Shown here: in pieces, positions 39,851 through 62,973 of the stretch | How positions within the stretch are numbered: position 1 is the stretch's first letter | How the letters are laid out: the number at the start of each line of letters is the position of its first letter | Assembly (NCBI RefSeq): GCF_963678975.1 | Contig: NC_089274.1 | Coordinates: 21,723,133 to 21,787,132 of the forward strand | Length of the DNA stretch: 64,000 nucleotides | Origin: Dysidea avara | Taxonomy: Eukaryota; Porifera; Demospongiae; Dictyoceratida; Dysideidae | Direction of reading: 5' to 3' | Translations under genes and position numbers: made by a program | Notes under the pieces: model-generated | Database searches by the model: none | The model's input: only the letters and a program-made list of their open reading frames with translations | What the model was told of the DNA's origin: nothing

Positions 39851-42800
39851 TCAATGGGAGCTTTCCAACATTGTCAGCTTACTCATCCAATCCTCACGGT
39901 TATGGTGCATTCCACAGACACTACGGTAACCTTTGATTAGTGCATCTCTTGCATGAAACATTCTCCAGTTATTCACTACCACCATTGTACTGGGCCGTAA
40001 GTCACATTTGTAAGCAAACTGGTCGCTGTAGAGTAGCTGGTGTAGATGTCGTAACGCTGAGTACATTTTCATCATTGCTTCATCAGCATTACATGACAAT
40101 GCCTTTGTAGCCTCTGATAGTGATTTCTCATCCAGTGGTTTGCGATCAATGTGGTTTAGAGCAATTGCAGTTAATTCACCATCATCATCGAGGGTAAAGG
40201 TGTTTTTGCGGATTCCATATGTAGCATCTTTGAATAGAATTTTATAGGGAACAGAAACCTTGCAGAGTAGAGTGTAATACTGAGGATTGTGTTGCTTGAT
40301 GTACGAGGCCAAGCTGAATGCATCAACTATTTTGCTGCCTGCACCTTCAGCGTTCTCATATGCCAGTACGTGAACCCACGTTAACCCTATACAAAAATAA
40401 CTATACATGCACCAGGAAAAAACACCTACATGCATATAGTAGCTGAAAATTTATAAATTTATACACAGATCATATGAACGTGTCATGTATGAACTCCAGA
40501 TTATTAACAAGCTAGGCTCATTCATTGTATCTATATATAATTGATTCTTGTGGGTAGATTGTTAGTTGTAAGCTGTATCCATGCATAAGAAAATGAGTTC
40601 AGAGTGTAGTTACGACAGCATAGAGCTGCATTACAGTGCTCCTATCCATCCTATAACCAATAATATCTGTCTTGTACCAGAAAATAAGCAGTAAGGACAT
40701 TTGTTGTTTTGGTTAATTGTCAAAACCTTCTAACAGAGACAGAATAATTATACTAGCTTCAGATGACGTGGTCTCTTTACTACCCTGAAACCAATTAGCT
40801 CAGTCTGTGGCCTCAAAAATTAATTTTGTGAGTAGGAAAATTATGATAGCATAATTTCAAGCATAATAGAGAAGCAAAAGCATCTAGCATTATGCCAGCA
40901 TGACGGTTTTCAACAATTTTGATCAAAATGCACAATGCATGCAACTCAAAATTACTAATGACCACGCTACACATTCAAACATTTCACTGTTTTGTGACTG
41001 ATTATTTACTAAATAAGACTGAGATACTCTAATAAAGGAGCCATTTAAGGTGGTTCAGTACAGTTTTCATAAGCAATCACATTAGTAGTGAGGCTTAATT
41101 ATAATCACTATTGTGGTTGACCACCAGTTCCTATCATTTGCAAATAACATAGTTAGACAAGCACAGATCATCTAACGAGATTGCAGCACTATTATTACAA
41201 GCCTCAATACAAAATGAACTAGTCACCATTTTTTCTTTCTTTTCAAGATACCGTATGGCCTAAATATTTTGAGGTTAGTTTTTTGAGGTTGAGCAATGTT
41301 GCTAAAAGTAAATTTTTCGTGAATTTGCAAAACACTCCCAAAATGTATTACACTATACGGAGGTCATATTTCAAGAATAAAATTTTCACTGTTAACCCCC
41401 AAAACCACGAAATCAGTGAAAATTTTCCCTCTCGAAATATTTAGGCTATATGATACAACTATCAAATTTTAGATAGGTAAGCAGTAGTTGCAATTAAGTG
41501 GAAGCCGATTTTGAATACTTGCTTTTCTGCCTGCTAGTGGCAAATTGAAAAAAAAAAATGTTACAAATCTTTGTGTGACATGGGTAGAATTAACACGTGA
41601 ACTAAAGAGGAAAGTAGTTCCACACAATGGTAGATAATCAGGTAAATAAGTGCTAAACTTGAAACTCATGCTACACACATACCAGGGAGCTCCTGTTTGT
41701 TGTAAAGAGTAGAGAACAAAATGCTTCATTGATTTCTGTTAGTACAAGGCACTTTATGGTGATAGCTTGCTTGTTTCATGCCCTGCAAATTTCATGGTGA
41801 AACCCTCCTTAATTTTACACAGCATCCAGGAAATACTGATATGCTTTCAAATAAACATTCAGCTCTTGAATAATTTTTCAATAAATAGGCTTATGAGCAT
41901 TACTCTAAAGCATAATAGGTCATTTTTCAATAAATCAATGGCTCAAACCTAAGCAGTGGCATTGCCTTAGACCTGGGCAAGCCCGGGAATCAAGCTACTT
42001 TGCTCTACCATTAGCTAGACGTGGGCTGAATCCACTGGTGAAAAGTTAGTTTATAATGTTTAAGAATAGCTACACAACTAACTTTGCCACTGTTTTGTTT
42101 TCTAGCAGCAAACAGAGATCAAAGGGTTTTATGAGTAACTTAATTGTGGTACGACTAATAGGAGGCAATAAATGAAAGAGATCATGTGACTATAATTCCA
42201 CAGGCAGCATCGTGACAAGGACTGAAGACTGAGGATTCGCACTGAACTTACCATTAGTCAGTGTTGAAGTACTGTATAGCCTAAACATTTCGAGGGGGGA
42301 AATTTTTGCTGATTTCGTGGTTTTGGGGCTTATCAGCAAAAATTTTAGCCTTGAAATATTTAGACCTCCATATAGTCTAATACATTTTGGGAGTGTTTGC
42401 AAATCTGCAAAATTTTTATTTTTAGCAACATTGCTCAACCTCAAAATATTTGCCCCTCGAAATATTAAGGTTATACGGTATAGTCGAAACTAGCAAAATA
42501 TTTGAGACATGAGGGCCCTGCATGGCAACGCCCGCCCCTTCAAAGGGTCTGGTGAACATAGTATACAGTACTTGTGCAACCAGAATTCAAATGTGTTTCA
42601 AATTGCACGTGACATAATATATTACGTAATCAGGCTATTGTACTTTGGCGAAGAAAGCATGAAACTTCATACTTCTCAACATAAGTCTTTATGGCAGGTG
42701 TATCTCGGAGTCTCACTTGGAGAGTATCAGCTGCTTTCCAACTATTCCAAATTTGGTCGCCATGGCTATTGTGTTATTCATGGCACAAACTGCATGGTTT

Positions 42801-45800
42801 ATGTCACAAGTGCTTATTTAAACTGGATACTGCAATTTGATTGGCTCTACCACTATAGTGGTAGTAGCACAAGTACCATATACTATGGTCACCAGACCCT
42901 TACCGTACGCAAGGAAATTTAGATGTCAGAAAAATTTGACGAATTGATTTAATTCATCAAATGTCTATAAGTGCCTTTAAAAGTACAGGTTAAATCTGGT
43001 TTTGTCTACAATTTCTTGATTTTCGTCAACATTTTATTCGTCAAATCTACTGAAGTGTGAATTCATCAAATTTTTCTTACGTCAAAATTTCCTTGCGTAC
43101 AGTACTCTAAAAGCAAAGGGGACGGGCACTGCCAGACTAGACCCATCTAGCTGCTGGATACTGGAGTGGATGCTGCTTAGAGTGATAGTTTACATGGTAT
43201 GGAGTACTTGTTCAGTCAGCATTTGTTTTCTTTTCTTCTTGCAGACTGACAACTTCAGTTCAAAGTCATCATGTCAAAGAATACTATAATGGTTTCTTCC
43301 TAGTCAAGTACAATAACACTGTTGTATTATACATATGTATTAAGAAGACCAATAGTAGCTAGCATTAGCAATGAGTAAGGCATTAGTTGCCTTGTACACA
43401 GTAGAGAAATAAGATAGTGATGCACAACATTTTAAAATGCTACTGTATATTACTGCCCATACAGTGTATGAAGATAAGTGCGTGTTGCATGGCTAAATGG
43501 CTTGCCTGCAAAAAGTCTGGCTACACCACTGAACCTAAGCCTTACCATATCATCCTCAGGTCTCTAAATTGTGCATAAATCTTGCTGGTGTGTTTAAACT
43601 ACTGTAGTGATAAGCACTATTATATGTATATGTACACATTACACTTACACACTTACATATGTGACCAGCTGAATGAAAACCAGCCATTTTCCCCGAAATT
43701 CTATTTTTTGCTATAAAAACATATCTGGGAATACATGTGCTACATAAAAAATTCACGCATGTTTCAATTACTTCGGTACACACTGAAACAAAGCTCAAAT
43801 CAATAATACCTATACATCACTGGACTTACCTATTCATGGAAAGTAAGAAAATCTTTGTTTTATGTTTTATAGCAAAAGGCACATGAGTAATGGGTGCTTA
43901 TTTATGATGTGGTAGAAAAAAGTCTACCATTGTTGTTTCTTTGTTGGAATGGTCTTTTTTGTCCACATGGAACAGCACAGGGAAAGGACTACACCTTGAC
44001 AGATTTGCCAGTTCATAGTGAAAAAATTGAGCCAAGTCCCATCTTTGAGTTACAAGATTAGTTGAATAAACATCTACAGTTTATTTGCATTATTGTTGCT
44101 GTACAAATCAATTTATTACTGTTCCAACTGTCTAGCGCTATAACTCTAAGACTATTCATCTTAAAGACTTTGACTGTCCACTCCTTTGTTAGTATAGATA
44201 ACAGAGAAACAATAAAATAAAATTCGAAAAATGACAGGTTTTTGCTCAACCAGTCACATAATTATGTTAGATGTAAATATTTATCAAAGACAAACCTGGT
44301 GGCTCAAAGAACACTGGATCATCAGTATGTGGTAGGACTCTTCCTTTACCAAAGGAGACATGACTAAATCACAAACAAAAATAGTAATTGTTATATTACA
44401 TTACCTGCAGGTATATAAAATTTCATAACTTCATATGTATGTGACCAGATTCTGCAAAAACGGTTTCATGTTGGCAATAAAGTAACTAATACCACTATCA
44501 GTATCATGAGTGCTCCACTTGCATGGTGGAATGGGCTGATGATTGAAGATTAAAGGCAAATATTATACTTACTCCATAGTAGCAACTAAAAAATAATATG
44601 AAAATCAATATAGGAAATACTTTTGGCCTGGTGTACGAGCCCATCCATCTTTTTACCAATGTCACAAGTCATCATGTGTCCCCAGAAAAGGCAACTCGTA
44701 TAAGCAGTCTAATGTAATCTGAGGCCTGGGAGCCAATGAAATTTCACAGTATAAGCAATCATCATCACCGGTATAAGAAAATTTTAGCCAATGAAATTTC
44801 ACAGTAGTGAATTTAAATACATAGCAATCATCATCACCGGTATAAGACAATTTTAGAAATTCTAGGATGGTACAGTATACATGTTGCTACATACCATATT
44901 TACTCGATTTGTGCCCCAGGAATACTATTATTTTTTGCCCAAAAATAAGGATAAAACCTTTCGAATAGTGTCACACTGCGGTATTATTCGAGGGTGCGCT
45001 ACTAATATTTTAAACCTGCCACTACTATAGCTATTCCACAATATAGTTTTATAAACCAATCACAGCACATTGCTACTTACTTCTGTACAGGACCTTTCTT
45101 TCACTCAAGTCCTTGTAGCACAACCATGTCATGCCTCATGCTATGTGGTTAATTTACTAACTAATATCCGGAATTTTGATTATGTGACAGCCGTTTAAGT
45201 TTTACCAGGACAATGCCTTCCTTAAATCAAGATGGAGATTAATACTAAAGGTATGAGAGCACTAGTAAAGGATAATTTACAAACCTATAGTGGGGTACTA
45301 TTCGAGGGTGTGGAAACAAGGATAAAGACCTTCAAATAGTACTGCACTGCGGTACTATTTGAGGGTGCGGCACAAATAGAATAAATATGGCATTTTTAAA
45401 AAGATGCAAAATATGACTACTCTACAAGACTGACTGCTCTACTAGAGAACCTTAACCTTTTGTTTCTGAAGTAGTGAGTGCGTATGGCATTAAGGTAATG
45501 TTTAGCTGACTACCAACTGCTACAAGTACTTAGCTATCAGAATTGCCACCCCCTCCCTCTCCCCTCCATGCTCTCTCATGGTCTCCCCATGTGGATACAT
45601 GATTACTTTGATAAGCATTAGTGTTCAATAGCAAATTAGTCAAAACTAGGAGAATACGCCAACGCCAACCCTGTCTGGTCCCCTCACATCAGAAGAAACA
45701 TTGATAAGCTTGAACAAGTACAGAGGTAATTTGCCAGATTCGTTATGGCTGACTTCTCGCGTTTCAGCAGCGTAACCAACATGCTCATTGACCTTAACAT

Positions 45801-46937
45801 TCCCAGTTTAGAACACCGCAGACAAGTATCCAGTATCACCCTCCTCTACAAAATTGTTCATAATCTCATTGATATATCTCTAATCCTTGTCACTTCGAAC
45901 ACCAGAGGACACGACCAAAGATTTCATCATATCTATGCAAGGACCAATCAGTACAGTAACTCATTCTTTCCTAGATCAATAAGACTGTGGAATACACTTC
46001 CACCTGATCTAATCCAACAACAATGATTACAAATTTACAAACTGAAACTATTATTACTTCCCCCTACCAATTAGTAATCCCATAGTCAATCATATTGTAA
46101 AACATTTTGTATGCAATATATGCATGTTTCATATGTGCGTTAATCCTCAAACTGAGGCTGCACATTTTTTTGGAAAATAAATAAAATAGTTAATGTATAT
46201 ATGAAACATCACCAATCTCTTTCTGAAAAAACACAGTTCTATCCACACAAACGACTTACGTACTCTTTTTTATGTGAAGTGGTCTCCATGTACCATTGCT
46301 GGCCATAGTATGAATTTTTAAAAGGACCAACTCTGTCTCCTGCTGCCGTCATGGACTCTTTAGTCACTGGAGCATCCAGTATAAAGCAAAATCCATACTT
46401 GTAGATGGCTCTCAACATTGTTAACAGACTGTTATCATTTGTCATCATGTTGTTGTAGTTCACTTGTGGTGGATCAACCATCGTTTTGTGGTCCCATAGT
46501 GTTATCTCCTTGATCTTGTCTTCTCCTGGCTTAGCAGGCTTATTGACGTTGTTGTGACAGTAACTGTTAGCCAACAACCACTCATACGAGTATTGTGAAC
46601 GATGTCCATCCCTCCATTCCACTTCTACTGCTGCGGCACTGTCCTCAACCTCCACACTAGTTGGGGTAGCATCCTCCAAAGTGTCCAGTAGTCGCTGGTT
46701 ATATCCTGGATGTCTACACTTTGTACAGAGACAACTATCCCTCAGCCAGTCAAAGTGATATTTGCTCCAAGAGTCTTTCTCTTTGCTCCAATTAACTAAA
46801 ATCGAGTTCTCTCTTTTATCTACGTCATCAACAGCTAGAGTGGTCACAGCTGATAAAGTTCGTGAAGTAATATCACGGAGAACTTTAAGTTGACACAGTA
46901 GTACGTTCGGTGATGCTCTTCGCATACACGACAGCAT
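39851..46937 (-). CDS. Gamma-butyrobetaine dioxygenase-like (BBOX1-like), copy A
   Basis: Three exons on the minus strand, 46937-46264, 44363-44296 and 40386-39851, give 425 residues; an in-frame ATG at 47006 would add 23. The family uses Fe(II), oxygen and 2-oxoglutarate to hydroxylate gamma-butyrobetaine (last step of carnitine synthesis) or trimethyllysine. The N-terminal domain has WLRDSCLCTKCRHP, matching the zinc-binding Cys cluster of BBOX1. The dioxygenase domain supplies HTD (237-239) in GRVLPHTDDPV and a distal His near 392 in VNNWRMFHARDAL, completing the iron triad; GMHHNREDWMSKL ends the fold. The exon 1 donor used is GA|GTACGT, which joins in phase and keeps the same residue spacing as copy B. 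Intron 2 is 3.9 kb and repeat-filled. It could instead be a TMLHE-type enzyme; substrate cannot be read from sequence. Confidence 0.85.
41249..41454. mobile_element. MITE with TACCGTATGGCC ends, copy 1
   Basis: TACCGTATGGCCTAAATATT at the left is mirrored by AATATTTAGGCTATATGATA at the right. The interior includes AACACTCCCAAAATGTATTA and CCCCAAAACCACGAAATCAG. The second copy (42270-42480) is inverted. Confidence 0.8.
42270..42480. mobile_element. MITE with TACTGTATAGCC ends, copy 2 (inverted)
   Basis: Same element as 41249-41454 in the other orientation: it runs from TACTGTATAGCCTAAACATT to AATATTAAGGTTATACGGTA, with TAATACATTTTGGGAGTGTT inside. The two copies are 815 bp apart and could fold together in the transcript. 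Confidence 0.8.
42902..43104. mobile_element. MITE with TACCGTACGCAAGGAAATTT ends
   Basis: TACCGTACGCAAGGAAATTT at the left and AAATTTCCTTGCGTACAGTA at the right are near-perfect inverted ends; ATTTGACGAAT-type repeats fill the subtermini. A one-ended copy lies at 35893. Confidence 0.85.
43669..44259. mobile_element. Inverted-repeat element with ATGTGACC ends
   Basis: ATGTGACCAGCTGAATGAAA, then AACCAGCCATTTTC, is mirrored by AAAATGACAGGTTTTTGCTC then AACCAGTCACAT. It is about 590 bp long and non-coding. A partial end recurs near 44449 (ATGTGACCAGATTCTGCAAA). Confidence 0.7.
44731..44858. repeat. Two tandem copies of a 70-bp unit
   Basis: Both units contain GCCAATGAAATTTCACAGTA and CAATCATCATCACCGGTATA. 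They lie in BBOX1-like A intron 1. Confidence 0.85.
44894..45390. mobile_element. Inverted-repeat element with CCATATTTACTC ends
   Basis: CCATATTTACTCGATTTGTG at the left and CACAAATAGAATAAATATGG at the right are inverted. ACTATTCGAGGGTG recurs inside both halves. It is about 500 bp, non-coding, in BBOX1-like A intron 1. Confidence 0.8.
45630..46200 (+). mobile_element. LINE ORF2 3'-end fragment
   Basis: Plus-strand reading gives VWSPHIRRNIDKLEQVQR, then after one stop FARFVMADFSRFSSVTNML, LNIPSLEHRRQVSSITLLYK and RSIRLWNTLPPDLIQQQ, the terminal ORF2 region of a CR1/Jockey-like LINE. It is 5'-truncated and interrupted by a stop. A tail of AATAAATAAAAT-type sequence lies near 46180. Confidence 0.85.
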
Positions 46938-47078
46938 CGCGAAACGTTTTATTAGAACTTGTTTTAACTTTAGTTGGATGTAAATTTCGCGATGTTCGCC
47001 GGCCATGCCGGTTACCCTGGTGCAGCAGGGTGTACATATGGCTGTATTAACAAAAATAGGCTGTTAAATCGGGCCCCT

Positions 47079-47345
47079 TTTTATTATTATTATTATTATT
47101 AGCGCTTTACAGTGACCAGCGCTGAAGGTCCGACAGACAGCAACATGCGCTGCAGCCTTAGGATTACCTAACCTACAAGGACTTAGACCTAGTGACTTCA
47201 CTTACTGACTGAATAAGGTGTAACAGAAAAGGGGCCAAAGAAAGGAAAAAAATCCCTCCAACCCCAGGATTCGAACTGCAGGTCACCCAATGTCTAGTCG
47301 GGGCCACACTCAGTCTTCCTCCAGGAGGGATGGATTTTCTTCCTT
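47079..47345 (-). mobile_element. tRNA-derived SINE with (TAA)n tail
   Basis: On the minus strand a B-box-like GCAGTTCGAATCCTGGGG follows GGAAGACTGAGTGTGGCCCC, consistent with a tRNA-derived head. The body ends CTGGTCACTGTAAAGCGCTA followed by (ATA)n at 47082-47101. Two more copies of the last 25 bp of the body with short tails lie in the same orientation at 47358-47411. Confidence 0.65.
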
Positions 47346-47408
47346 AAACCTAAAGTATTTATTATTAGCGCTTTACAGTGACCAGATTATTAGCGCTTTA
47401 CAGTGACC

Positions 47409-47538
47409 AGAGCTGTATGTAAGCAAATTAGGCAAATTCGGCTCGATTTAAAACAATCCGGCTCGATTTAAAACAATCCGGCTCGATTTAAAACAATCCG
47501 GCTAGGGGTATTGTTATCTAAATTACATACAGCTCAGT
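47409..47538. repeat. Three tandem 24-bp units within a short inverted repeat
   Basis: GGCTCGATTTAAAACAATCC occurs three times (47440-47505 region). AGAGCTGTATGTAA on the left and TTACATACAGCTC on the right bracket the array. Confidence 0.8.
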
Positions 47539-47553
47539 AGCTGCCCCTTCGAT

Positions 47554-47595
47554 TAGTCTCGCGTGCCACTCTTCGCGCGGCGCTTATAATTACCG
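47554..47595. mobile_element. One-ended MITE copy (same family as 7759-7868)
   Basis: TAGTCTCGCGTGCCACTCTT then GCGCGGCGCTTATAA matches the left arm of the 110-bp MITE. The other arm is missing and reverse-transcriptase-like sequence follows directly. Confidence 0.6.
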
Positions 47596-48367
47596 ACACC
47601 CTGCTTGCCTCTTTGTTGATGGTGATGTTCTCTACTCTGAGGAAGGGACAACTCAAGGTGACCCACTTGCAATGCCATTTTATGCTCTAGCCACTGTACC
47701 TTTAATTCAGAAACTCACTGTACCTGTCACTCAGGTGTGGTAAGATGATGATGCTGCTGCCTGTGGTAAAATTTCTGCTCTTCGTATGTGGTGGGACCAA
47801 GTTTCCTCACTGGGCCCTAGCTTTGGTTACTTCCCTAATGCAAAGAAGACATGGCTTGTTACTAAGACTCAGTTTTGCTCTGTTGGTAAGGAATTGTTTC
47901 ATGACACAGCTGTAAATGTTACATCCGATGGCAGGCCTCACCTTGGTGCCCCAGTTGGCACCTCTGAGTATGTGGAAAGATTTACTTTTGATAAGATTAG
48001 CCAGTGGGTTTCTGAAGTTAATACACTCTCCTCCATCGCTATCTCCCAACCTCATGCTGCTTATACATGTTTTACTCATGGACTATTTAGCCGTTGGCTG
48101 TATGTAACACGTACAGTCCCTGATACATCTTCTAGTTTCCAGTCACTCGAGAAAGCCTTATTGACAAAGTTTATTCCAGCCTTGACTGCCCTTGACCCTC
48201 CTGGTGCTCTTCAACGTTCACTCTTTGCCCTTCCAACTAGATTTGGTGGTCTAGGCATTGTTGCACCTGATTCTTTATCATCTATTGAGTTTTCTGCTTC
48301 AATGTATGTCAGCTATTATAGTACAGTGGAAAAAGCAGTAAGCCACGAAATAAGATTTATTGGTTAA
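47590..48367 (+). mobile_element. Broken reverse-transcriptase-like fragment
   Basis: The region reads [20 protein letters not shown], then DDAAACGKISALRMWWDQVS and LGPSFGYFPNAKKTWLV, a reverse-transcriptase palm of a group distinct from the CR1/Jockey-like LINEs elsewhere in the window. It is incomplete at both ends and broken. The family is uncertain, so it is treated as a fossil retroelement piece. Confidence 0.6.
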
Positions 48368-48549
48368 GTTGGTGCTGTAACTGTTTCTTGTGAGTAATGT
48401 CATTGTGGCAAAGTATTGGTAACAGATCAGTATCTGCCATTTCCACCTAAAATGTATTTGGTATCAGATCAGTAGTAAGAAAAGTGATATTACTACACTA
48501 CATACTGTATGTAGAACTTTGGACAGTCTTATTATATCAATAACACCTC

Positions 48550-50526
48550 TCACTTCAAGAGCTTTTTAACACATCCTGTGGCTGGGCATCCTTCTTTTCT
48601 TCCTTTCTGCAAATGAGTTCTTGGTTTCTTATCATACACATGATCAGTGCATTCTTCCTGCACAAAAATGTACAAAACTAGCTAATCATGTTAGTACAGT
48701 TAAGGTATTAATTAGCATACTTCTTTGACATGATACTTTTTTGGTTGACCACGTTGACACTGGAGCTCTTGCGAACTGATCACAATAAATGGAGTGCCAT
48801 CGGCTGGTATTGTGCCATAACTCCAAAGTAATCTAGATGACTCACCTCGGTTCTTGTGCTGTTTTTCAAAGTTGTCAACATGACTAAAACAACAATGGTA
48901 AATGGCCATTCAATATATGCCACACTGGAACCATAGATAGGTGACAAAAATCAAATTCCGGCGTTGTGATCCCCAATCTATCATACTTATATCTATACAC
49001 ATGACTCACACTTTAGAAACATATGAGGTATACTTAACCCACATGCTCATGCAATCAAATATAAGTCACAAAGCTCACACAGACAAATTACCACCTATAA
49101 TTACAAAGATGTGTCTTTAGCTTTGAATACAAACAGTGTGGTTAACTACATAGTTATGGAATGTGTATGCACAAATATTTTACTATCACCATACTGTAGG
49201 TCATTTAGAGTAGCGTAGAGGATTTGTGGCACAGAGGAAAATGCTTATGATAAACTGTGACCATGCAGTGCACATTGTATGTATTAAGCGAACTGAAGGC
49301 TATTCAAACAATATGGAATTTCTCTATTACACCAGTTGTTAGCTATTACACATTTTAATCTGGAAATCAATTTGGAATGGGTAGGCTGTACAACCAGGTT
49401 AAGACGGTTCCAATACTGTGTATGAAGTGAACCCAATTTAGACAGGGGAAATAGCTCTGCCAAAAGAAGGACTGTTTTCAGCTGTGTGTCAACAAACAGT
49501 AATAATATCATGATGTCATAAACATAATGTGACAATGCGACATCAGATCTCCGACAATTAGTGAATCCCATATCATATGCATATCATGGTTATATATACA
49601 AATTGGTTACATATGTAGTAGAGGGTGCAATGCGCCTTCTACTACCTAAGAAGCCAGTTTTCACAATTCTGTTAGTTTAAAGTTAGGGTTTGACCATTAA
49701 ATTCTATTTGTAATATCGGCTATATTACCATTAGATTTAACTATATCTAAGATTCAGGGTTTCAGCAGCTAGCAGCACTGGTACAGTGGTTAGAACTGAC
49801 CAAGAGTTCATAATATAAAGTAGTAAGAGATTGAGTACCTTAATATTGTATATTATAAACTCTTGAACTGACGCATTACAAAAAATGACAAGATTGAGTA
49901 CAGAAATCTACTACTTGCTTTTTCTAAAGGCATCAGCTTCCCATGATCATGAATGTCTTTGCAGTAATGTGCCTATCATTTGGAACCCCCCTGTATGGGA
50001 TTCACTATATGGGATTAACTTACAAATTATGCCCAAGTAGTGGGGCTTTTAACGCAACTGTTTAAAATTTTAAGAACAATTGAATTACATGTACTGTATT
50101 ACTACGTATGCATAGCCCCTCTGAGCACCATGACATCACTTTGTACATACTTCGTGCATGCTTGTCATAAAGTGGCAGAATACTTAAGGGGTTGGTAAGG
50201 AATTGAATAAGTGCTTGTTCCCCAGTTGTGGGGCTTTCGCTCTTGCAAAATTGTCAAATCCCTACATAGCCGGTACTGGGAGCTAGGGGGGGGGGGGGCT
50301 TAACATTGATAGGAGCATCAACACACACACACACAAAATACAATGCAATATAAAGTCCTTAACAGTTAAATAGTCGCAGCTAGCTACATGCTGAATTGTT
50401 ACTGACTTAGTTTAGCTGTTCCATTAAACATTTACCTCTTCACATAATCCGTCAGACATGCCCGCCCATGCAGATCAAGTACTTTGTCAATGTCAACCTC
50501 CGATAGGAATCCATTGATGAAACCAT
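48550..50526 (-). CDS. Unrecognised gene between the BBOX1-like copies (3' part)
   Basis: Three exons on the minus strand join in phase: about 50526-50436, 48883-48721 and 48657-48550, ending in TGA. The first reads NGFLSEVDIDKVLDLHGRAC then LTDYVK; the second HVDNFEKQHKNRGESSRLLW, GTIPADGTPFIVISSQELQC and QRGQPKKYHVKE; the third EECTDHVYDKKPRTHLQKGR then KEGCPATGCVKKLLK. The intact frames over three exons and clean GT-AG sites argue for a real gene. The last exon is Cys- and Lys-rich. I recognise no domain. The 5' end is not found; a LINE tail at 50540-50600 lies directly upstream of the first exon seen and may have cut the gene. It could be a fragment of a domesticated transposon protein. 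Confidence 0.5.
48884..50435. other. Intron of the unrecognised gene
   Basis: Contains a 70-bp inverted repeat (CAAGAGTTCATAATATAAAG at 49792 with TATATTATAAACTCTTGA at 49850) and a segment at 49537-49571 (GACATCAGATCTCCGACAAT) that recurs at 50882-50921. A homopolymer G run is at 50287-50297. Confidence 0.5.
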
Positions 50527-50539
50527 CTTTTACGTGCAC

Positions 50540-50850
50540 ATCATTTATTATTATATTATATTTATATTATATTTATATTATATTTATTACTGTGCAGCAA
50601 TCAAAAGATTATAACGCACAGGTGTGATCATAAAAGTTACTTAAGTTATTACAAAACTCATTAGGGGTAGAGGAATTACATCAGCAGGGAGTTGGTTCCA
50701 TAATTTGATGGTTGATGGGATTTGTATGCATCAATTAGAGTCATTGGTTGGTGATTTAAGAACGACAAGCCCCAAGCAGGAAGAGTTGCGGGAAGGGTTG
50801 ACCTCGTGGTTGACATACACCGAATCGCGTGGTACCGCACGTGATTGGTG
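50540..50850 (-). mobile_element. LINE 3'-end remnant
   Basis: A minus-strand tail made of ATAATATAAAT units (50545-50600) follows CTGCACAGTAATAAA, and GTTGGTTCCATAATTTGATG at 50691 fits the terminal ORF2 xxLWNxLP block. It is about 300 bp and eroded. Confidence 0.55.
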
Positions 50851-51169
50851 GCGGATATCGATCACAGTGGTTTTGACGTCATGACATCAGATCTCCGACG
50901 ATTAGTGAAACCCGTATTGGGAAAGTCCCCCGACTATTTCCGCCATTTTATTTGGTGACGTCATTTAGGATAGAGGTCATTTGCCGGCCACCAAGTGCAA
51001 ATCGCGCACGTGCCTCTGAGACACAGTAATAGCTATAGAAAATACTCACGCGAGGTTACTTCCGCCACCGTTTTACCTTTTTCCTGTAGCTTGGACACAC
51101 CCGATTAGCCTATATACTGAGTTTAGCTACCCTTCGTCTGGATAGCTTTAAACGGAAGGTACTACTACG

Positions 51170-54100
51170 ATGCTTTCTTTCGCTCGCAAAATGCTGCTCA
51201 GTCGGCTGGCATTGCCTGCAATCAGGGTTTCCTATCCGTTAAGAACACAAGCCACAATGTCCGCCGCAGCCGTAAACATCAAAGGAGAGAACTCAATTAT
51301 GGTGAATTGGAACAAGAAGAAAGACTCTTGGAGCAAATATCACTTTGACTGGCTGAGGGATAATTGCCCCTGTACAAAGTGTAGACATCCAGGATATAAC
51401 CAGCGACTACTGAACACTTTGGAGGATGCTACCCCAACTAGTGTGGAGGTTGAGGACAGTGGCACAGCAGTAGAGGTGAAATGGAGGGATGGACATCGTT
51501 CACAATACTTGTATGAGTGGTTGTTGGCTAACAGTTACTGTCACAACAACATCAGTAAGCCTGCTAAGCCAGGAGAAGACAAGATCAAGGAGATAACACT
51601 ATGGGACCACAAGATGATGGTTGATCCACCACAAGTGAACTACAATGACATGATGACAAATGATGACAGTCTGTTAACAATGCTGAGGGGTCTCCACCAA
51701 TATGGGTTCTGTTTTGTGCTCGGTGCACCGCCCACAGAAGAGTCGATGAAAGAAGCAGCAAACCGAGTTGGCCCATTTAAAAATGGGTACTTCGGTGGCC
51801 AGCAGTGGGTCATGAAATCTGATATTCTCACAATTGAGTTAGTCCCATCTATATAGATTTGAATGGGTTGATGGACCATGTATTGTTGACTTAATGTTTC
51901 ACCTGCATTGCTATATGTCTCACTGCCTAAATTTGGTCACATCATGCAAGTTGTCACCATTATTCCATCATCTCAATGATTGTATGGAAGTAATAGACCA
52001 ACTTGCTTACATATAGCTAGGCACAGAGGAAGGAAGGCTAAATGGGTACACAATGTCAGGGGAGGGGACTTTAAACCCCTTCAATTTTAATAGTGAGATA
52101 GCTGTAATAGAGCATTTAGCTAACTCTAATAAAACAGTCAGGTGTCTGTAAAATTGTAATGAACAATGAGTTGTCTGCCCACATTGGTTTAGGTTACCTA
52201 TGATCTGAAACATATAAAATGACTTTAGACCAGAAAGCACCAGGATCTGCCACTTATAACACTATTATATCTAAATGCTGAGTTGGCTTATCTTAGCATG
52301 TGATCTTAGTACGGGTCATTCCATACCAAGTCAACAAAAAAAAATCCGGCCCCCTTTTGATTTTCGTGAAATTTGGCACAAACATGGACCCTATCAAGAA
52401 ACTTTCTTACACCAAAATTTGGCTCATTTTATTGGTCTCCCTTTAAGTTATGACCACTCAAAGTTTCTGCTGAAAATTTTATGAAGCTTACACGTCTTCA
52501 ATAAAATGGCCATAACTTTGCTTGTGATTCACATAGAACCTTCTGGGTTAGAGTTTTGAAATCCTTATTAAATTCTCTTTCAAGTGATATATATAATTGC
52601 TCAAAGGAAAAGGTCAAACCACAAAAATGTAGATTTTTCCTTTGATCTTCATTTTCAAAAATATATTCTTTAATTAAATTTATTTTTGGTTTACATGTTG
52701 CTCTAATACCTATCATTCATCACTGTGAGTTTACAGTTGGGACCAATAGTAGATCATGAGTTATAAGTGTTAATGTGTAGCCTTGTAATTACTGTTGTTT
52801 GTATGGTTCAAGTATGCAAAGATGCAATACCAATTGTAAGTAACTTTATATAATACTATGTCACAATCATTAATACATTGTTGGTTTGTAAGTAATGTTA
52901 ATTTGTTTATGTTTTGTAAGAAAACCCAGTAAAAGCTTATACTTAAATACACATATTCAAGTAATTTACCAATGATCAAGCTCGTATATATTGTTTCTGA
53001 TTATGACGCCAAGTCTATTATACAGTAGTGAAATATTGAACTTGATGACATTTTCACTAGCTACAGTAACTGCTACTGCTACTGTTAGCATTTAATGCTG
53101 ATTGTTGATATGCAAGTATGTATTTTGATACACAAATGTAGCTATGGTGAAAACTATCTAAGCCAGTCAGGGCCAATTTTTTTGGCCTTAATATTCAGGT
53201 GGCTATTTATATAGTTTGATGTGTATAAATGTCTTACTAGAACAATTTAAAGTTGGCCCTTAATAGAAAGGTGGTCTTTTGTTACAGGTGGCCACTAAGA
53301 CAAGTTCCACTGTAATTTGAAACACTTACAAATAAAACATGATGTTATGTAGCTGCATTCTTTGTTCTTAACACAGACATGAATGTTTTAGTATTGTAAT
53401 CTACTAGAGATTTTCTAAAAAGTAGTAATGAATGACTGATGCAGTATTAACAGTCTTTTCAACTTATACCTTCAAAAATTCAATTGTGTACTGATATCAA
53501 TGCATCAGATTTCATTGCATATCAAAGGTACATGTGAATGATTGTAGAGACTGTCATGCAATATGCACCACTTTCAGTCTCAAGTTTTACTATAATGCTC
53601 TGATTTAACTTTGAAGTTAATTGCCTTGACCCTTTCTTTAATTGATTGTTAATGTATTTCGCTTAAAGCTATAGATATGTATCAGTGTGCAATTGCTGTA
53701 GTGAACCTTTCTACAATGTAATTTCTATGGAACATTTCTATGATTCTAATTATAGAAGAACTATATACATTGCTATTTTTATCATGATACAGTTGATGTA
53801 TGGAGTTAAAGTCAGGTATCTTAGGGCCAAAATTTCTGGGCCTTAATGTGCAGGTAGCTGCTTAATACATTTGCATAAGTGTATAGCAACAATTTAAAAT
53901 TGGCCCTTATGGAGTAGTGGCCTTTCTATACAGGTGGTAACTTTCCACTCTATTCCATCAAATTTCTGACGAGTAAGTGGTTTTAAAAGTGTACATTTTT
54001 CCAGCAAAGGCATTGTTTATAGGTACAAGTATATAAAGTTGGCCTGTAAGTGGTCAGTAGTAGGCTTGCTCTTTCAAAGTATGATTCAAAAGTGATATAC

Positions 54101-57100
54101 AGTGTAATATACCTTAGCGGCTACCTTAAAGGCCACCTTTTTATAAGAGCCAATTTAAAATAGGATATTTCTACTCTAGTGCAACTATATGAAGCAGCTA
54201 TCTAGGTATTAATACCAAGCAGCTTTGGATATCACTAAGACATGGCATTTCAATTCCACTTTACATGTACATATGTATGAATAACTGTCGTTTGCATCCA
54301 TTATACACACATATAAGATTGCATGGAAACTATCATCATAATCTGTGGCTGAGTATTATTATTATTATACAGTAAGTAAAATTGAAAGAATAGATTGGAA
54401 TATCATTCGTTGTACAGTAAATCCCTTATAAATATAGCTACCCCTATAATAAGACCACCTTGTTATAGTGACCACCTCTATTTTATAGGACACTGAACTT
54501 ACAAGAAAAACATAATCAGTGATTCCTTTATTAGGCAGCCTTATTATTGCTCCAACTTTCTTAGCTTTAAAAGTGGCTCTGTTAATATGGTTTCACTGTA
54601 GTGAGCCCTTGTCAATACTATTTTAATACATAAATGATATTTAACATACCAATATAAGGCTACTTGCAATTGGTATTAGAAATTACACTCAGCAGTGATT
54701 ACAAGGCTACACATTAACACTTATAACTCATGATCTACTATTGGTCCCAACTTTAAACTCACAGTGATGAATGATAGGTATTAGAGCAACATGTAAACCA
54801 AAAATAAATTTAATTAAAGAATATATATTTTTGAAAATGAAGATCAAAGGAAAAAGCTACATTTTTGTGGTTTGATCTTTTCCTTTGAGCAATTATAAAA
54901 TGTTATATATCACTTGAAAGAGAATTTAATAAAGATTTCAAAACTCTAAACTAGAAATTTCTACATCAATCACAAGCAAAGTTACGGCCATTTTATTGAA
55001 GACATGTAAGCAAAATAAAATTTTCAGCAGAAACTTTGAGTGGTCATAACTTAAAGGGAGACCAATGAAATGAGCTAAATTTTGGTGTGAGAAAGTTTCT
55101 TGATAGGGTCCATGTTTGTGCCAAGTTTCATGAAAATCGAAAGAGGGCCGGATTTTTTTTTGTTGATTTGGTATAGAATGACCCGTACCTTAAGCATCTT
55201 ATGGTATACTAAATATATAATTAGCAATCTAATACATTGATGAAATTGGCACATACAAATGAAACTATTTGTACCTGCAGTGTTGGGAGTAACGCGTTAC
55301 TTATGTAACGTGTTATGTAATATTATTACTTTTGTGGTAAGTAAGTAATATAACGAAATACGCTATAAAAACAGGTAATATAACTCAAGTTACTTTACTT
55401 ACAAATGTAATGTGTTACCTAAGTAATATAGTTACTGTAACAAATCTAATATTACGTAATATTATTACTACAAGTAATAAAGTTACTAATCTCGTTAGTA
55501 ATCCACTGAGTATATAACGCCTAGCCACAATGAAGTAATTAAACCTACTGAATGAAGCTTATTCACCAGCTTCTTACTTATAACCAAGATTTACACATTG
55601 TTCAACAACGCAATCATGTCACGTGATAATGTGGTAGTTTCACACGTGACAGCTTAAGGCTGCAAGGTAATATAATATGTAACATTATTATAGTTACTTT
55701 TTTTTATGGGTAATATGTAACCGTAACTAAATAGTTCAGTTACAAGTAATATGTAATATGTAGCTAGTTACTTTTAAAAGTAACTTGCCCAACACTGTGT
55801 ATCTGAAAGTTAACATCTGCTTGAAACATAGCAGCTGGATAAAATTAAATTGATTACAGTGATGGTTTTATAATATTAATCAGTATACATTTGTCGAAAA
55901 TAAATTAAATTTATTATTGTGCATGTACCCATCAGCCTGTGCTCTTCTCTTTTTAGGCATGTGTCATTTGGTACAGGAAAAGTACTGCCTCACACTGATG
56001 ATCCTGTTTACTTTGAACCACCAGGTGTGTTATTTGTACACTGTTAAAATTCAGGTGTAACCAAAGCACCTTTAGGGGTGTCCAGTTGCATGTTTAAAAA
56101 CAACTCCCTTCATGTGTTAGAACTCCCTTCATGTGTTAGAAAAGGGTGCTGTGATGACACTTGGAGGGTGTGAAAGAAGAGTGCTAAGGTGCTGCAAGAA
56201 ATATAACGCCATAGTGTAAAAGTGCTACAGGGGGTGTAAATCCAGGGTGTGTGGTGGGGCACTGTTAATTTCCGACACTTTCAAAGGGTGTTCCCATTAC
56301 ACCTCATCAATGAAATGTAGTTGCATTGATTATCAATGTCGTCTATATTCAGAAGTGCAGCACTTCATGCATAGTAAACAAGTTTCCTTTAGCACAATGG
56401 GAAAGCGTTTATGCAACTATTGTTTGGAAAACCAATCCACATTAGTGACTGGATTTGACAAAACAAGGCTTCCACACACATCCACTTTTATGACTTTGAA
56501 GTACCATTATGACAACTCAATCATTATGTAGGAATATGCCGTTAGTTTCAAGCTTTGACCTGGTATATTGTACTATGCTATGGAAGGACTTTGTGCAAAT
56601 TTTAAGCCAATAGCTTGCTGAGTATATAGTCAAGTTACAGCTGGTTATAGTCAGAAAATTGGATGTGTGTGGAAGCCTAGCTTGTTTTGTCAAATTCGGT
56701 CACATATTTATTTAATTTAATAATTATTTAGAAGTTTTAATTTGAGATAAATGGTTTAGATTTAAAACTATTGTAACTTTCCAAGGCACACATATGAAAT
56801 TTACACCAGAGATGCATCAATTTATTACCTTTCAGATACCTGTAGAGTTCCTGCCAAATAAGAAAGAAAATCAGATGACTTTAATGAGCTAGCTAGCTCA
56901 CTACAATAAAATTCATATTTGTACATATGTGATGAGCTGTAAATGTGATATGCATGAGATGTACTTAGTTGGGGTAAGTAAAAATTATGTAGGGGATAAT
57001 AGTTCACATTTGCTATTTAATGATGCAAATGTGAACTATCATCTCCTACACATCACATACACTACAGGAGTTCACACTATGTACAATATTTTTAGAGCAT

Positions 57101-60100: not shown

Positions 60101-62973
60101 TGGTATACAGTATGATAGTACTGTATGATATACCACTTGGGCATGCTCACCTAATAGGTAAAGAGACAAACCTACATTCACCACATTACTTTTATACAAA
60201 GGTATCTAGATATCGATTGTGGGTTTAAATTTTGGGCTGTGGTATTCACAAAAAAGAAATGATCATGGGTTTTGCTGGTTTTAGTGGTACCATTTCTAGC
60301 CAAGTAACCCAGTTAAGGTCTAAAATAGTCTAATGTGCTAAAGTAAGTGCTGATGAGAATGTCTGTCATCTTGTCACATGGTTGAAATGTGCTCATATAG
60401 AAAACCATCTCCAACACTCCACTAACAATTATTTAGTGGTGTAGTAGCTGAACTGTGTCATTAAATTATTTTTCCTTGAGAGAATGATTGGCCAGCTAAG
60501 CCTATATGCTAAACTCAAACCCACAATGTAAAACTTTAAGCAGCTCAGTATAAAGAATCAAAGGGAACTGATGTTTTGTAGTTGCCTCAGCATCAAAAGC
60601 ATTGCGGTCAGGGCTATATCATGATATTGCCCTAACCACAGGGTGATATCAAGATATCGCCCTATGGTCAGGGCAATGTGTGAAATATAACCCTGTGGTT
60701 TCCTTTGATCTTAAGTGTCAAAGTGGTATATCAGTACATAGTCTATGATCAGGAGTGGCAGATATAGAAATTTTCAGAGGGGGTTTCAGGTTCAGGAAAT
60801 TCAATAACTATGATTCCACACTGTCCAGCGTGGGGTGAATTTTAAGCTCAGTGGCCTATAGCTACATAGATTTATGGCGTAAACTGGCTAGCAATGAATC
60901 AGTAAAAAAACATCATTTCACAGTTGAATCTTACCAATCCAGGCCTTCGCAGAAAGTTCTGATGCAAAACCACTTGTACTCATTTAAACTATAATTATTT
61001 TTAGAGGCACTTAACACCCTTAAATGTTGCAATGGCATTTTCATTGATTTCATAGGCAAAACTATAAAGTTTGGCTAGTAGAAAAGAGTCCCAATATAAT
61101 ACACTATGTATATATAACCCTTGGTGATTTTATCACTCACACAAATCATAAATAAATTTGGGGCGCACGTTATTTTTCAGAGGGGGTTTCAGCTGAAACC
61201 ATCGCAACCCCCCTGTATCCGCCACTGATCAGTGTATGTTAATGAGAAGTATTGTTTGTACCGGTGTGGTGCATGTATGTTACACACCCTGTGTGGGATA
61301 TTGTATGTGCTCAATAGTACTGTATATTAGGAGATACCTTCATGGTACATTAGTTAGATATAATCAAGCCAAAAGTGCCTTCAGTGTAACCCAAAATGTT
61401 TCCTTTATTCAGTGCAATTTTCTGCTGTGACTGATGGCAGACTGACAGACTGATGCCTTCAGACCAGCATAACTCTATAACAACTAAAGTTACAGGCTTG
61501 ATTTTTTCACTATTAAGTGTTGTTTCAACCCAACAGATGCCTTTCAGCAGGCCGCAGTACGTACAATGCATGCATTTACCTTTGTGTCCTATTTTTCCCA
61601 ATTAAGGTGTTGATTTGCAGTAGTGAAAAATGGCTTTCCTGTAGCTGACTACTATTTTGACGAGAATCATCTGTATTTTCTTAGTCAGTGGATTGATTGC
61701 AGAGGTGCTTCTTGAACTGTTCTTTTATAAAGTTGTGTAACGAGCTGAAAACACCTGACAATGAATGAAGAGTAATGGCCACTTCACTTTCAGTAATTGA
61801 TGGTTGGGGTGCACATTCAGATGCAATGTCCAGCACTATTCTTTATTTTGATGTGGTATTTGTGTGTTCACCAGTCATAATTATGTTACCAAAAAAGTTA
61901 ACAAACAGGAAAAATAGGAATTATAAATTCAAAAAGTAGTAAAACAACGGGGTCCCGGGGTTGCCTACACCTGCTAGTATACTAGTGGAGATTGAACCCC
62001 TAAGTCAGTATAGACTGAAGTAGAGCCACTAGCATATCAGCAGGTGTAGATGACCCCTTGTTTTACTACTTTTCCTATGGTTCTTAATAAAACATAAACC
62101 TGATTCCTTTTTTTCCTTGCACTTGTAAATAGCTAGTATAGTCCAAGTGTTATAGTTGGATTTCAGGCAGATTAATATATCACCACTCTTCCCTAGCTTA
62201 CACAGGACCTGAAGCTATATTGATGCTGCCCTCGAATAGCAGTTGACTTTGAATTGTAGCCAGTACGTACCATCCACAGGTTCTTGCAATGTAAAAATAC
62301 TAGTAGTCACAACACCCATATAAATATAAATTATGATGAACACTTCCCAGGTTCTTAATAAACTGTTTCTCCTGCATTATATGTATAAAATAATTCTCTA
62401 ATGATGTCATTGGATCACCTTATATTTTATGTAGGCATGACATGGCTTCATGTACTAGCCTATGAGAATGCTGAAGGTGCGGGCACTAGAATCATGGATG
62501 CATTCAACATAGCCTACCATGTAAAGCAGCACAACCCCGAATACTATGCCTTACTGAGCAGGGTTCCCATCCCATATGAAATCATGCTCAAAGATTGTAC
62601 GTACAGAAAGCACAGGAAAACCTTCATTCTTGATGACGATGATGAGCTACTTGCAGTGTCACTAAACCACATTGATCGCCGACCGCTAGATGAGAAATCA
62701 CTAGCAGAAGCCAGAAAGGTGTTGTCGTGTGGTACTGATGAGGCAATGAAGAAAATGTACGGAGCATTACGTTATCTACACGAGGTGATGTATAGTAACC
62801 AGTATGCTTATACATGTGATTTGCGACCTGGTGTGCTGGCAGCAGTGAATAACTGGCGAGTCTTTCACTCAAGGGATGCTTTGATCAAAGGTTACCGCAA
62901 GGTCTGTGGAATGCATCATAATCGTGAAGACTGGATGAGCAAGCTCTTAACACTAGAACGACTCAAGAACTGA
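51170..62973 (+). CDS. Gamma-butyrobetaine dioxygenase-like (BBOX1-like), copy B
   Basis: Three exons, 51170-51837, 55957-56024 and 62435-62973, encode 424 residues; phases and exon lengths match copy A almost exactly. The N-terminus MLSFARKMLLSRLALPAIRV is Arg-rich and amphipathic, a mitochondrial-type leader. The zinc cluster is NCPCTKC (Cys66, Cys68, Cys71). The iron triad is His235-Thr-Asp237 in KVLPHTDDPV and His390 in VNNWRVFHSRDAL. The end reads GMHHNREDWMSKLLTLERLKN. The exon 1 donor is GA|GTTAGT, weaker than the consensus, but it keeps the residue spacing of copy A exactly (16 residues from the conserved Trp to the Gly of HVSFG). Introns are 4.1 and 6.4 kb, swollen by transposons. 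Activity on gamma-butyrobetaine or a related trimethylamine is inferred from the family. Confidence 0.87.
51318..51684 (+). other. Tract nearly identical to BBOX1-like copy A (46443-46800, inverted)
   Basis: By eye about 16 differences in ~366 bp separate this tract from the matching part of copy A, whereas sequence on both sides (leader, second half of exon 1 and exon 3) diverges much more. Boundaries fall near AAAGACTCTTGG at the left and CTGTTAACAATG at the right. A gene-conversion tract is the simplest reading. Confidence 0.7.
52309..55188. mobile_element. 2.88-kb element with ~490-bp terminal inverted repeats
   Basis: The left arm (52309-52795) and right arm (54695-55188) are near-mirror images over almost 500 bp, starting GTACGGGTCATTCCATACCA and ending TGACCCGTAC. 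CTTA flanks both ends (52305-52308 and 55189-55192), a 4-bp target duplication. The 1.9-kb interior has no coding sequence I can support and contains repeats of GGCCAATTTTTTTGGCCTTA type. It lies in intron 1 of BBOX1-like B. Superfamily unknown; a foldback-like non-autonomous DNA transposon. Confidence 0.88.
55278..55797. mobile_element. Non-autonomous hAT-like element, copy 2 (inverted)
   Basis: Same element as 16237-16762 in the opposite orientation: CAGTGTTGGGAGTAACGCGT at the left, TTGCCCAACACTG at the right, and the central TCACACGTGACAGCTTAAGG shared with copy 1. Flanks TGTACCTG (55270-55277) and TGTATCTG (55798-55805) are an 8-bp duplication with one mismatch, so this insertion is likely older than copy 1. 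Confidence 0.9.
56039..57866. mobile_element. 1.83-kb inverted-repeat element flanked by TA
   Basis: CACTGTTAAAATTCAGGTGT at the left and ACACCTATAATT...GGTAGCACC...AAATTTTTACAGTG at the right form inverted ends of about 35 bp. TA borders both ends (56037-56038, 57867-57868), as in Tc1/mariner-type insertions. Recurrent AGGGTGT/ACACCC blocks fill both subtermini. It contains a 25-bp-arm hairpin at 56986-57050 (TGTAGGGGATAATAGTTCAC) and no transposase. It starts 14 bp after BBOX1-like B exon 2. Confidence 0.72.
57869..58918. other. BBOX1-like B intron 2, unassigned part
   Basis: AT-rich sequence with nothing supported beyond short simple repeats. Confidence 0.4.
58920..59034. mobile_element. 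Palindromic MITE around CCATGGTATA ends
   Basis: TTATACCATGG at the left and CCATGGTATAA at the right enclose GGATTTGCCTGATATATATG facing CATTTATATCAGGCAAATTCC, with a GC-rich loop (GCCCGGGCCAGCC...GGGCC). Confidence 0.78.
59053..59280. mobile_element. Near-perfect hairpin element with ~100-bp arms
   Basis: The left arm (AGTGCATGATATTAAATCAC, AGTAAAACAATAAGAAGTGT) is repeated inverted on the right with few mismatches, meeting around a ~25-bp loop at about 59152-59176. High arm similarity suggests recent spread or ongoing arm conversion. Confidence 0.85.
59390..59645. repeat. Two tandem copies of a ~130-bp unit
   Basis: AAAAGTGAAGTATCCATTAC followed by a GTTxTCxGCTATGTT block and AATCAAGAACTGTT occurs in both units (from about 59410 and about 59560). 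Confidence 0.8.
59587..61740. mobile_element. Old 2.1-kb element with diverged inverted arms
   Basis: The region 59587-59965 recurs inverted at about 61380-61740, e.g. GTGAAAAAATCAAGCCCGTA against TACAGGCTTGATTTTTTCAC, plus shared GAAGGCATCAGTC and AGCACCTCTG blocks, at an identity I judge near 70%. Weakly coding-like frames occur in the left arm but none is conserved in the right. It hosts a later inverted-repeat insertion (60750-61227). Confidence 0.6.
60750..61227. mobile_element. hAT-like inverted-repeat element of ~480 bp
   Basis: CAGGAGTGGCAGATATAG at the left mirrors CTGTATCCGCCACTG at the right, and TCAGAGGGGGTTTCAG occurs near both ends. The ends resemble the CAGGGGCGGAT type at 12509. 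No matching 8-bp flanks are readable. Confidence 0.6.
61932..62073. mobile_element. Palindromic MITE with AAAAGTAGTAAAACAA ends
   Basis: AAAAGTAGTAAAACAACGGG at the left and CCCTTGTTTTACTACTTTT at the right, with CCTACACCTGCTAGTATACT facing ACTAGCATATCAGCAGGTGT inside. It is about 140 bp. Confidence 0.85.

Follow-up and report, generated by a model that had tools for sequence, protein, structure and literature searches.

How two genes that are well diverged over most of their length can be nearly identical within part of a single exon is the question raised by a 64,000-nucleotide stretch of the genome of the sponge Dysidea avara (hereafter the window; assembly GCF_963678975.1, contig NC_089274.1, forward-strand positions 21,723,133 to 21,787,132, or C3:21723133-21787132 in our numbering). 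The data basis is this one assembly (550.8 Mb in 108 contigs). The window contains two intact three-exon paralogues, A (minus strand) and B (plus strand), which lie head to head and are predicted to encode Fe(II)/2-oxoglutarate oxygenases of the GBBH/TMLH family. The local near identity is very probably the result of partial gene conversion between these inverted copies, spanning about 0.36 kb of exon 1.

A bounded tract of low silent divergence in exon 1

Codon alignment of the first exons (A, 46264..46937, minus strand; B, 51170..51837, plus strand) paired positions 46778-46416 of A with 51320-51682 of B over 121 codons (363 bp), and only 16 single-base differences were found in this tract. 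Twelve were nonsynonymous (N/S, P/L, N/D, G/A, T/A, K/E, L/S, I/V, S/N, M/T, D/N and D/N) and four were silent. The tract (46416..46778 on the minus strand in A, 51320..51682 on the plus strand in B, as placed by exon-1 alignment, codon table and synonymous scan) occupies the central part of exon 1, where it takes in the greater part of the zinc domain plus the linker, with homologous but diverged exon-1 sequence on both sides: within alignment columns 60-240, 47/157 bases outside the tract differ. Likelihood breakpoints gave a length of 365 bp, with an uncertainty of about two codons at the start and four at the end. Beyond exon 1, the blastn matches were 82% identical at exon 2 (79 bp) and 74% identical across exon 3.

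The silent sites show the same boundary. In 25-codon bins, the proportion of synonymous differences (pS) between A and B was 0-0.18 across columns 76-200 but 0.43-0.99 elsewhere; for all sequence from column 226 onwards, which begins in the last part of exon 1, it was 0.62, with a synonymous divergence (dS) of about 1.3. The tract thus has definite limits and far less silent divergence than its flanks, a mark of interlocus gene conversion, and copy number and flanking structure are unchanged, as in a non-reciprocal transfer, both partners being intact with the same exons. An earlier sequence-only reading of this DNA had placed a conversion tract within 46264-51837, which is exactly the range from exon 1 of A through exon 1 of B, and its 16 differences (12 amino-acid-changing, 4 silent) are the same list that our codon table gave. 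Its claim of non-uniform identity along the coding region also held, as low pS was limited to the bins of columns 76-200, and its tract limits were right to 2 bp in B and off by 22-27 bp in A.

The same signature in all three head-to-head pairs

Searching the genome with the GBBH-like_N and TauD profiles, with only the best candidates scored and copy counts therefore being lower bounds, we found at least ten paralogues that are intact and share the three-exon layout. Six of these ten form three neighbouring pairs, each head to head: A/B, C7m/C7p and C5m/C5p, with start codons 4.2 kb, 3.8 kb and 48 kb apart, respectively. The other four (C12, C3p, C8 and C13) are unpaired.

All 45 pairs were scanned for synonymous tracts, using only codons with the same degenerate amino acid in both copies, scored as same or different, and comparing the best segment with 20,000 shuffles. 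After correction for 45 tests, only three pairs passed, and these were the three head-to-head neighbours. For A/B (columns 77-202), 96/100 synonymous codons matched inside the tract and 51% outside; for C7m/C7p (columns 130-219), the values were 74/77 and 47%, and for C5m/C5p (columns 69-223), 117/126 and 64%. In 1,000,000 further shuffles, the observed score was reached 0 times for A/B, 0 times for C7 and 4 times for C5. The likelihood tract lengths were 365 bp (A/B), 258 bp (C7) and 439 bp (C5), and all three tracts begin and end within exon 1, at different points. None of the other 42 pairs survived correction (lowest uncorrected p 0.007, corrected 0.33), and dispersed close relatives had no trough in columns 76-225 (pS 0.48-0.80 for C7m-C8 and 0.14-0.58 for C5p-C3p). 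As the scan was limited to codons with an unchanged amino acid, protein constraint alone cannot give these tracts. The conversion between A and B that had been proposed from the letters of the window is therefore upheld by the tract in the scan, its absence from 1,000,000 shuffles and two further head-to-head pairs that behave alike, and it is strongly supported that conversion in the family extends beyond the window.

Trees and direction of transfer

In trees of the C7 flanks, C7m joined C8 (support 99/99) and a grouping of C7m with C7p was rejected (approximately unbiased test, p-AU 0.009); in the C7 tract, C7m joined C7p (94/89). A and B were sisters in both tract and flank partitions, so no change of topology is expected for them. 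Distances to third copies gave the direction of transfer. Between C7p and C8, the distance was 0.403 in the flanks but only 0.187 in the tract (Fisher 8e-11), whereas C7m was about equally far from C8 in both (0.182 and 0.187), and C7m was therefore the donor and C7p the recipient. For the C5 pair, C5m-C3p dropped from 0.274 to 0.135 (2e-8) and C5p-C3p from 0.188 to 0.144 (p 0.06), so on these distances to C3p, C5p was probably the donor to C5m. For A/B, the tract distances of the two copies to C12 (0.288/0.288), C5p (0.303/0.314) and C3p (0.328/0.339) did not separate donor from recipient.

Several observations weigh against conversion as the explanation, or against its breadth. The rival grouping of C7m with C8 was not rejected in the C7 tract (p-AU 0.14), and the C5 trees separated the groupings in neither partition (p-AU 0.24 and 0.44), which leaves the distances and the silent-site scan as the support for C5. 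Among the 42 other pairs, seven had uncorrected p <0.05 where about two are expected (about five above chance), and two of the comparisons, A-C3p (p 0.016) and A-C5p (p 0.033), had short synonymous runs at columns 129-141, within the tract region; silent sites there may be locally constrained, though not on the scale of the three tracts. There is also a TauD-type pair at 7.30 and 7.40 Mb of C13 (L038 and L039), oppositely oriented, about 100 kb apart and of a different TauD family, whose alignment fell into two blocks of 75% identity each and showed no sign of a tract. Inversion alone is therefore insufficient, and as all three near pairs of the oxygenase family are inverted, orientation and nearness are confounded.

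Change after the transfer

When the 12 amino-acid differences between A and B were read against the eight remaining paralogues, four looked derived in A and four in B, and four could not be polarised. Two of the A-derived changes are adjacent to cysteines of the zinc type, A having RDSCLC where B has RDNCPC. With 12 nonsynonymous and 4 silent changes, the ratio of nonsynonymous to synonymous rates (dN/dS) in the A/B tract was 0.73, 0.91 or 1.10 for a transition/transversion ratio (kappa) of 1, 2 or 4. It did not differ from 1 (P 0.39-0.66 for as few and 0.56-0.81 for as many nonsynonymous changes), a comparison of low power with 16 changes. The C7 tract had 6 nonsynonymous and 3 silent changes and the C5 tract 15 and 11, neither different from A/B (Fisher 0.67 and 0.33); depending on the tract limits, total differences were 7-9 in C7 and 24-26 in C5.

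The sequence-only reading had ascribed the A/B changes to weakly constrained or diversifying evolution. Weak constraint is possible and, together with small numbers, would give so high a proportion of amino-acid changes. Diversification found no support: although 12/16 changes are nonsynonymous, including the two next to zinc-type cysteines, the dN/dS estimates and P values above and the lack of difference from the C7 and C5 tracts make diversifying selection on the A/B tract quite improbable. Fifteen of the 16 A/B tract differences were transitions, as compared with 113:77 transitions to transversions in the flank (Fisher 0.006) and 23:12 in the C7 and C5 tracts together (Fisher 0.04). GC-biased conversion was considered and rejected, as GC content at fourfold sites in the tract columns was not raised (0.29 in A and 0.24 in B, compared with 0.26-0.43 in the other eight copies).

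Alternative explanations and a likely route

The near identity could also reflect strong purifying selection on the tract DNA itself, exerted through the protein, splice enhancers or an antisense frame, with no transfer. The exon-1 core is indeed somewhat the better conserved part of these genes, with a mean identity among the 42 other pairs of 0.613 compared with 0.561 for columns 253-471 (exons 2 and 3) and higher values in 37/42; the A-C3p and A-C5p runs at columns 129-141 point the same way, as does a 64-amino-acid antisense open frame across the tract in both copies. However, such selection should act on unpaired copies too, and no comparable synonymous tract was found in the 42 other pairs, with C7m and C8, for instance, silently diverged in the same columns; we consider this explanation extremely improbable. 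Equally hard to credit is an assembly artefact in which exon 1 of one copy was filled with reads of the other. The copies are near each other and alike, but such filling should leave near identity and not 16 differences (or the numbers seen in the C7 and C5 tracts) with derived-looking states on both sides, and it would have had to recur at three loci with the reading frame kept every time. Duplication or shuffling of exon 1 as a unit into the neighbouring gene, by partial duplication or recombination in introns, would account for high similarity limited to one exon. It is nearly as improbable, since the tract ends within exon 1 with diverged homologous exon-1 flanks on both sides and both genes retain three exons with the same phases and GT-AG sites.

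A different kind of alternative accepts conversion and asks whether selection favours it, so that paired enzymes retain a common zinc and linker domain (e.g., to form mixed dimers) even as their leaders and catalytic domains diverge. All three pairs are affected in this one domain, and a role of this kind has been suggested for mosaic conversion by other authors (PMC2720389). However, since the transfer the A and B tracts have come to differ by 12 amino-acid changes and 4 silent ones, a poor fit to strong selection for sameness, and nearness and local identity account for the location equally well, so we regard selected conversion as unlikely. Only slightly less doubtful is the broader idea that exon 1 is a recurrent conversion island, in which each head-to-head pair would re-homogenise its zinc-domain/linker module under diverging catalytic domains, perhaps for mixed dimers.

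For partial conversion as such, the following course would fit. An old inverted duplication would have given rise to A and B, which then diverged until their silent sites were far apart. Much later, a break in one copy would have been repaired with the other as template, so that about 0.36 kb in mid exon 1 was overwritten. The tract ends inside that exon, where the copies had already diverged, and the 16 substitutions would have accumulated since. The C7 and C5 pairs would have been converted independently, with different tract ends. As the simplest route we infer non-reciprocal repair of the double-strand-break type from the neighbouring copy, with a single event per pair. Conversion was probably confined to exon 1 by the nearness of the first exons together with the longest near-identical stretch, the introns and later exons being too diverged. 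In the 42 other pairs, the mean longest exact run was 17 bases in the exon-1 core and 12 in columns 253-471. As the exon-1 core is most alike and the first exons are nearest in a head-to-head pair, this may be why the tracts sit there.

Enzyme family

Both spliced proteins matched the Pfam domains GBBH-like_N and TauD (55.2 and 83.5 bits for A, 60.3 and 88.0 bits for B; cut-offs 22.8 and 27). Residues H235, D237 and H390, which we take to be the iron triad of the HxD...H motif, and C66, C68, C71 and H109, presumably the zinc ligands of the CxCxxC...H motif (B numbering), were invariant in the seven aligned proteins of the ten, A and B included. Against NCBIfam, B scored best of three models with trimethyllysine dioxygenase (TIGR02410, 221.4 bits, below its equivalog cut-off of 268.3), followed by gamma-butyrobetaine dioxygenase (TIGR02409, 175.2 bits, below 414.75) and TmpA (170.2 bits, cut-off 400). 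All three models were also matched by each of the seven family proteins scanned, and trimethyllysine dioxygenase gave the best E-value every time. Solved relatives of B were gamma-butyrobetaine dioxygenase (3n6w, near full-length, E 6.3e-32), DfmD and TmpA. The label "BBOX1-like" given from the sequence alone was thus approximate, as B scores higher with TIGR02410 and falls under both equivalog cut-offs. By these profile matches, A and B are predicted to be oxygenases of the GBBH/TMLH family. They share the GBBH_N zinc domain and TauD fold with the TMLHE/BBOX1 family (TIGR02410, TIGR02409; PDB 3n6w, 3ms5, 4bg1) and differ from it in those scores and in the presence here of at least ten copies in one genome.

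Gene models, surroundings and other relatives

In A, the gene model (with a GT donor) and Pfam matches to PF06155 and PF02668 on the spliced protein place the leader, the GBBH-like_N zinc domain, the linker and the start of the TauD fold in exon 1, followed on the minus strand by exon 2 with the HTD iron-binding motif (44296..44363) and exon 3 with the remainder of the TauD catalytic domain (39851..40386). In B, exon 1 was likewise supported by the gene model and Pfam, and is followed on the plus strand by exon 2 with the HTD motif (55957..56024) and exon 3 (62435..62973). All model introns are GT-AG, and exon phases agree between the copies. Self-comparison of the window found no inverted A/B match in the 4.2-kb spacer between the start codons (46938..51169), whose open frames resemble, by eye, part of a reverse transcriptase; a 207-amino-acid frame there (47744-48367) had no Pfam match. 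Within intron 1 of B, two segments of about 500 bp (52309-52803 and 54684-55188) form an inverted repeat, 92% identical and perhaps a mobile element. Just past gene A lie two tandem frames resembling CmcI-type O-methyltransferases (PF04989; 37190-38098 and 38475-39449). No such frames were found near other family members in the stretches read, and the tandem pair, 68% identical over 336 bp, is uninformative for conversion.

Beyond the ten paralogues there are a diverged C10 group and some TauD matches outside the GBBH/TMLH-type family. The C10 group is a same-strand array at 13.73-13.75 Mb (L036 and L037) of a diverged GBBH/TauD subfamily, with patchy identity of 70-99% along the copies. Exon 1 of C8 (G000:C8:27251288-27250492) has 36 codons from the start of the zinc domain repeated in tandem and in frame, which gives this paralogue two CxCxxC motifs. 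A partial relative (L040, G000:C8:27258501-27262500) lies on the strand of C8, some 9 kb upstream of it, with exon-3 pieces 90-93% identical to C8 in different frames; in the 4 kb read, this neighbour matched C8 only from exon 3 on, with no exon-1 match. Both the C10 array and this neighbour were considered as controls in direct orientation, and neither supplied one.

Comparison with known systems and implications

Mosaic or restricted conversion of inverted duplicates was already known, and what is new here is three replicates in one exon of one family. One close likeness is the Dlx pair of Capitella teleta, closely linked inverted paralogues which have a 150-bp conversion tract with the remainder diverged (PMC3199776). 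Both cases have a short tract in the most conserved part of the gene in a linked inverted pair; the Capitella case is a single tail-to-tail pair with a tract extending into an intron, whereas here three head-to-head pairs have tracts of 258-439 bp inside exon 1. The same source names Drosophila Hsp70, amylase and trypsin genes as linked inverted duplicates kept alike by conversion. Mosaic concerted evolution is described for mammalian BMP8A/B (which is inverted), DDX19A/B and TUBG1/2 (PMC2720389), whose tracts take in introns as well and, by that account, have endured over 100 million years, whereas the tracts here are exonic and dated by silent divergence only. Partial conversion of worm paralogues in either orientation has also been described (PMC3966223), and passages on cnidarian TauD genes (PMC12225738) have no bearing on the present case. 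Our literature search found no earlier report of conversion in this oxygenase pair, which is no proof of absence.

For the family itself, trees built on exon 1 can mislead. The three inverted pairs and four unpaired intact members also amount to a natural experiment, on a small scale, that bears on the conditions for conversion, be they nearness, orientation or local identity.

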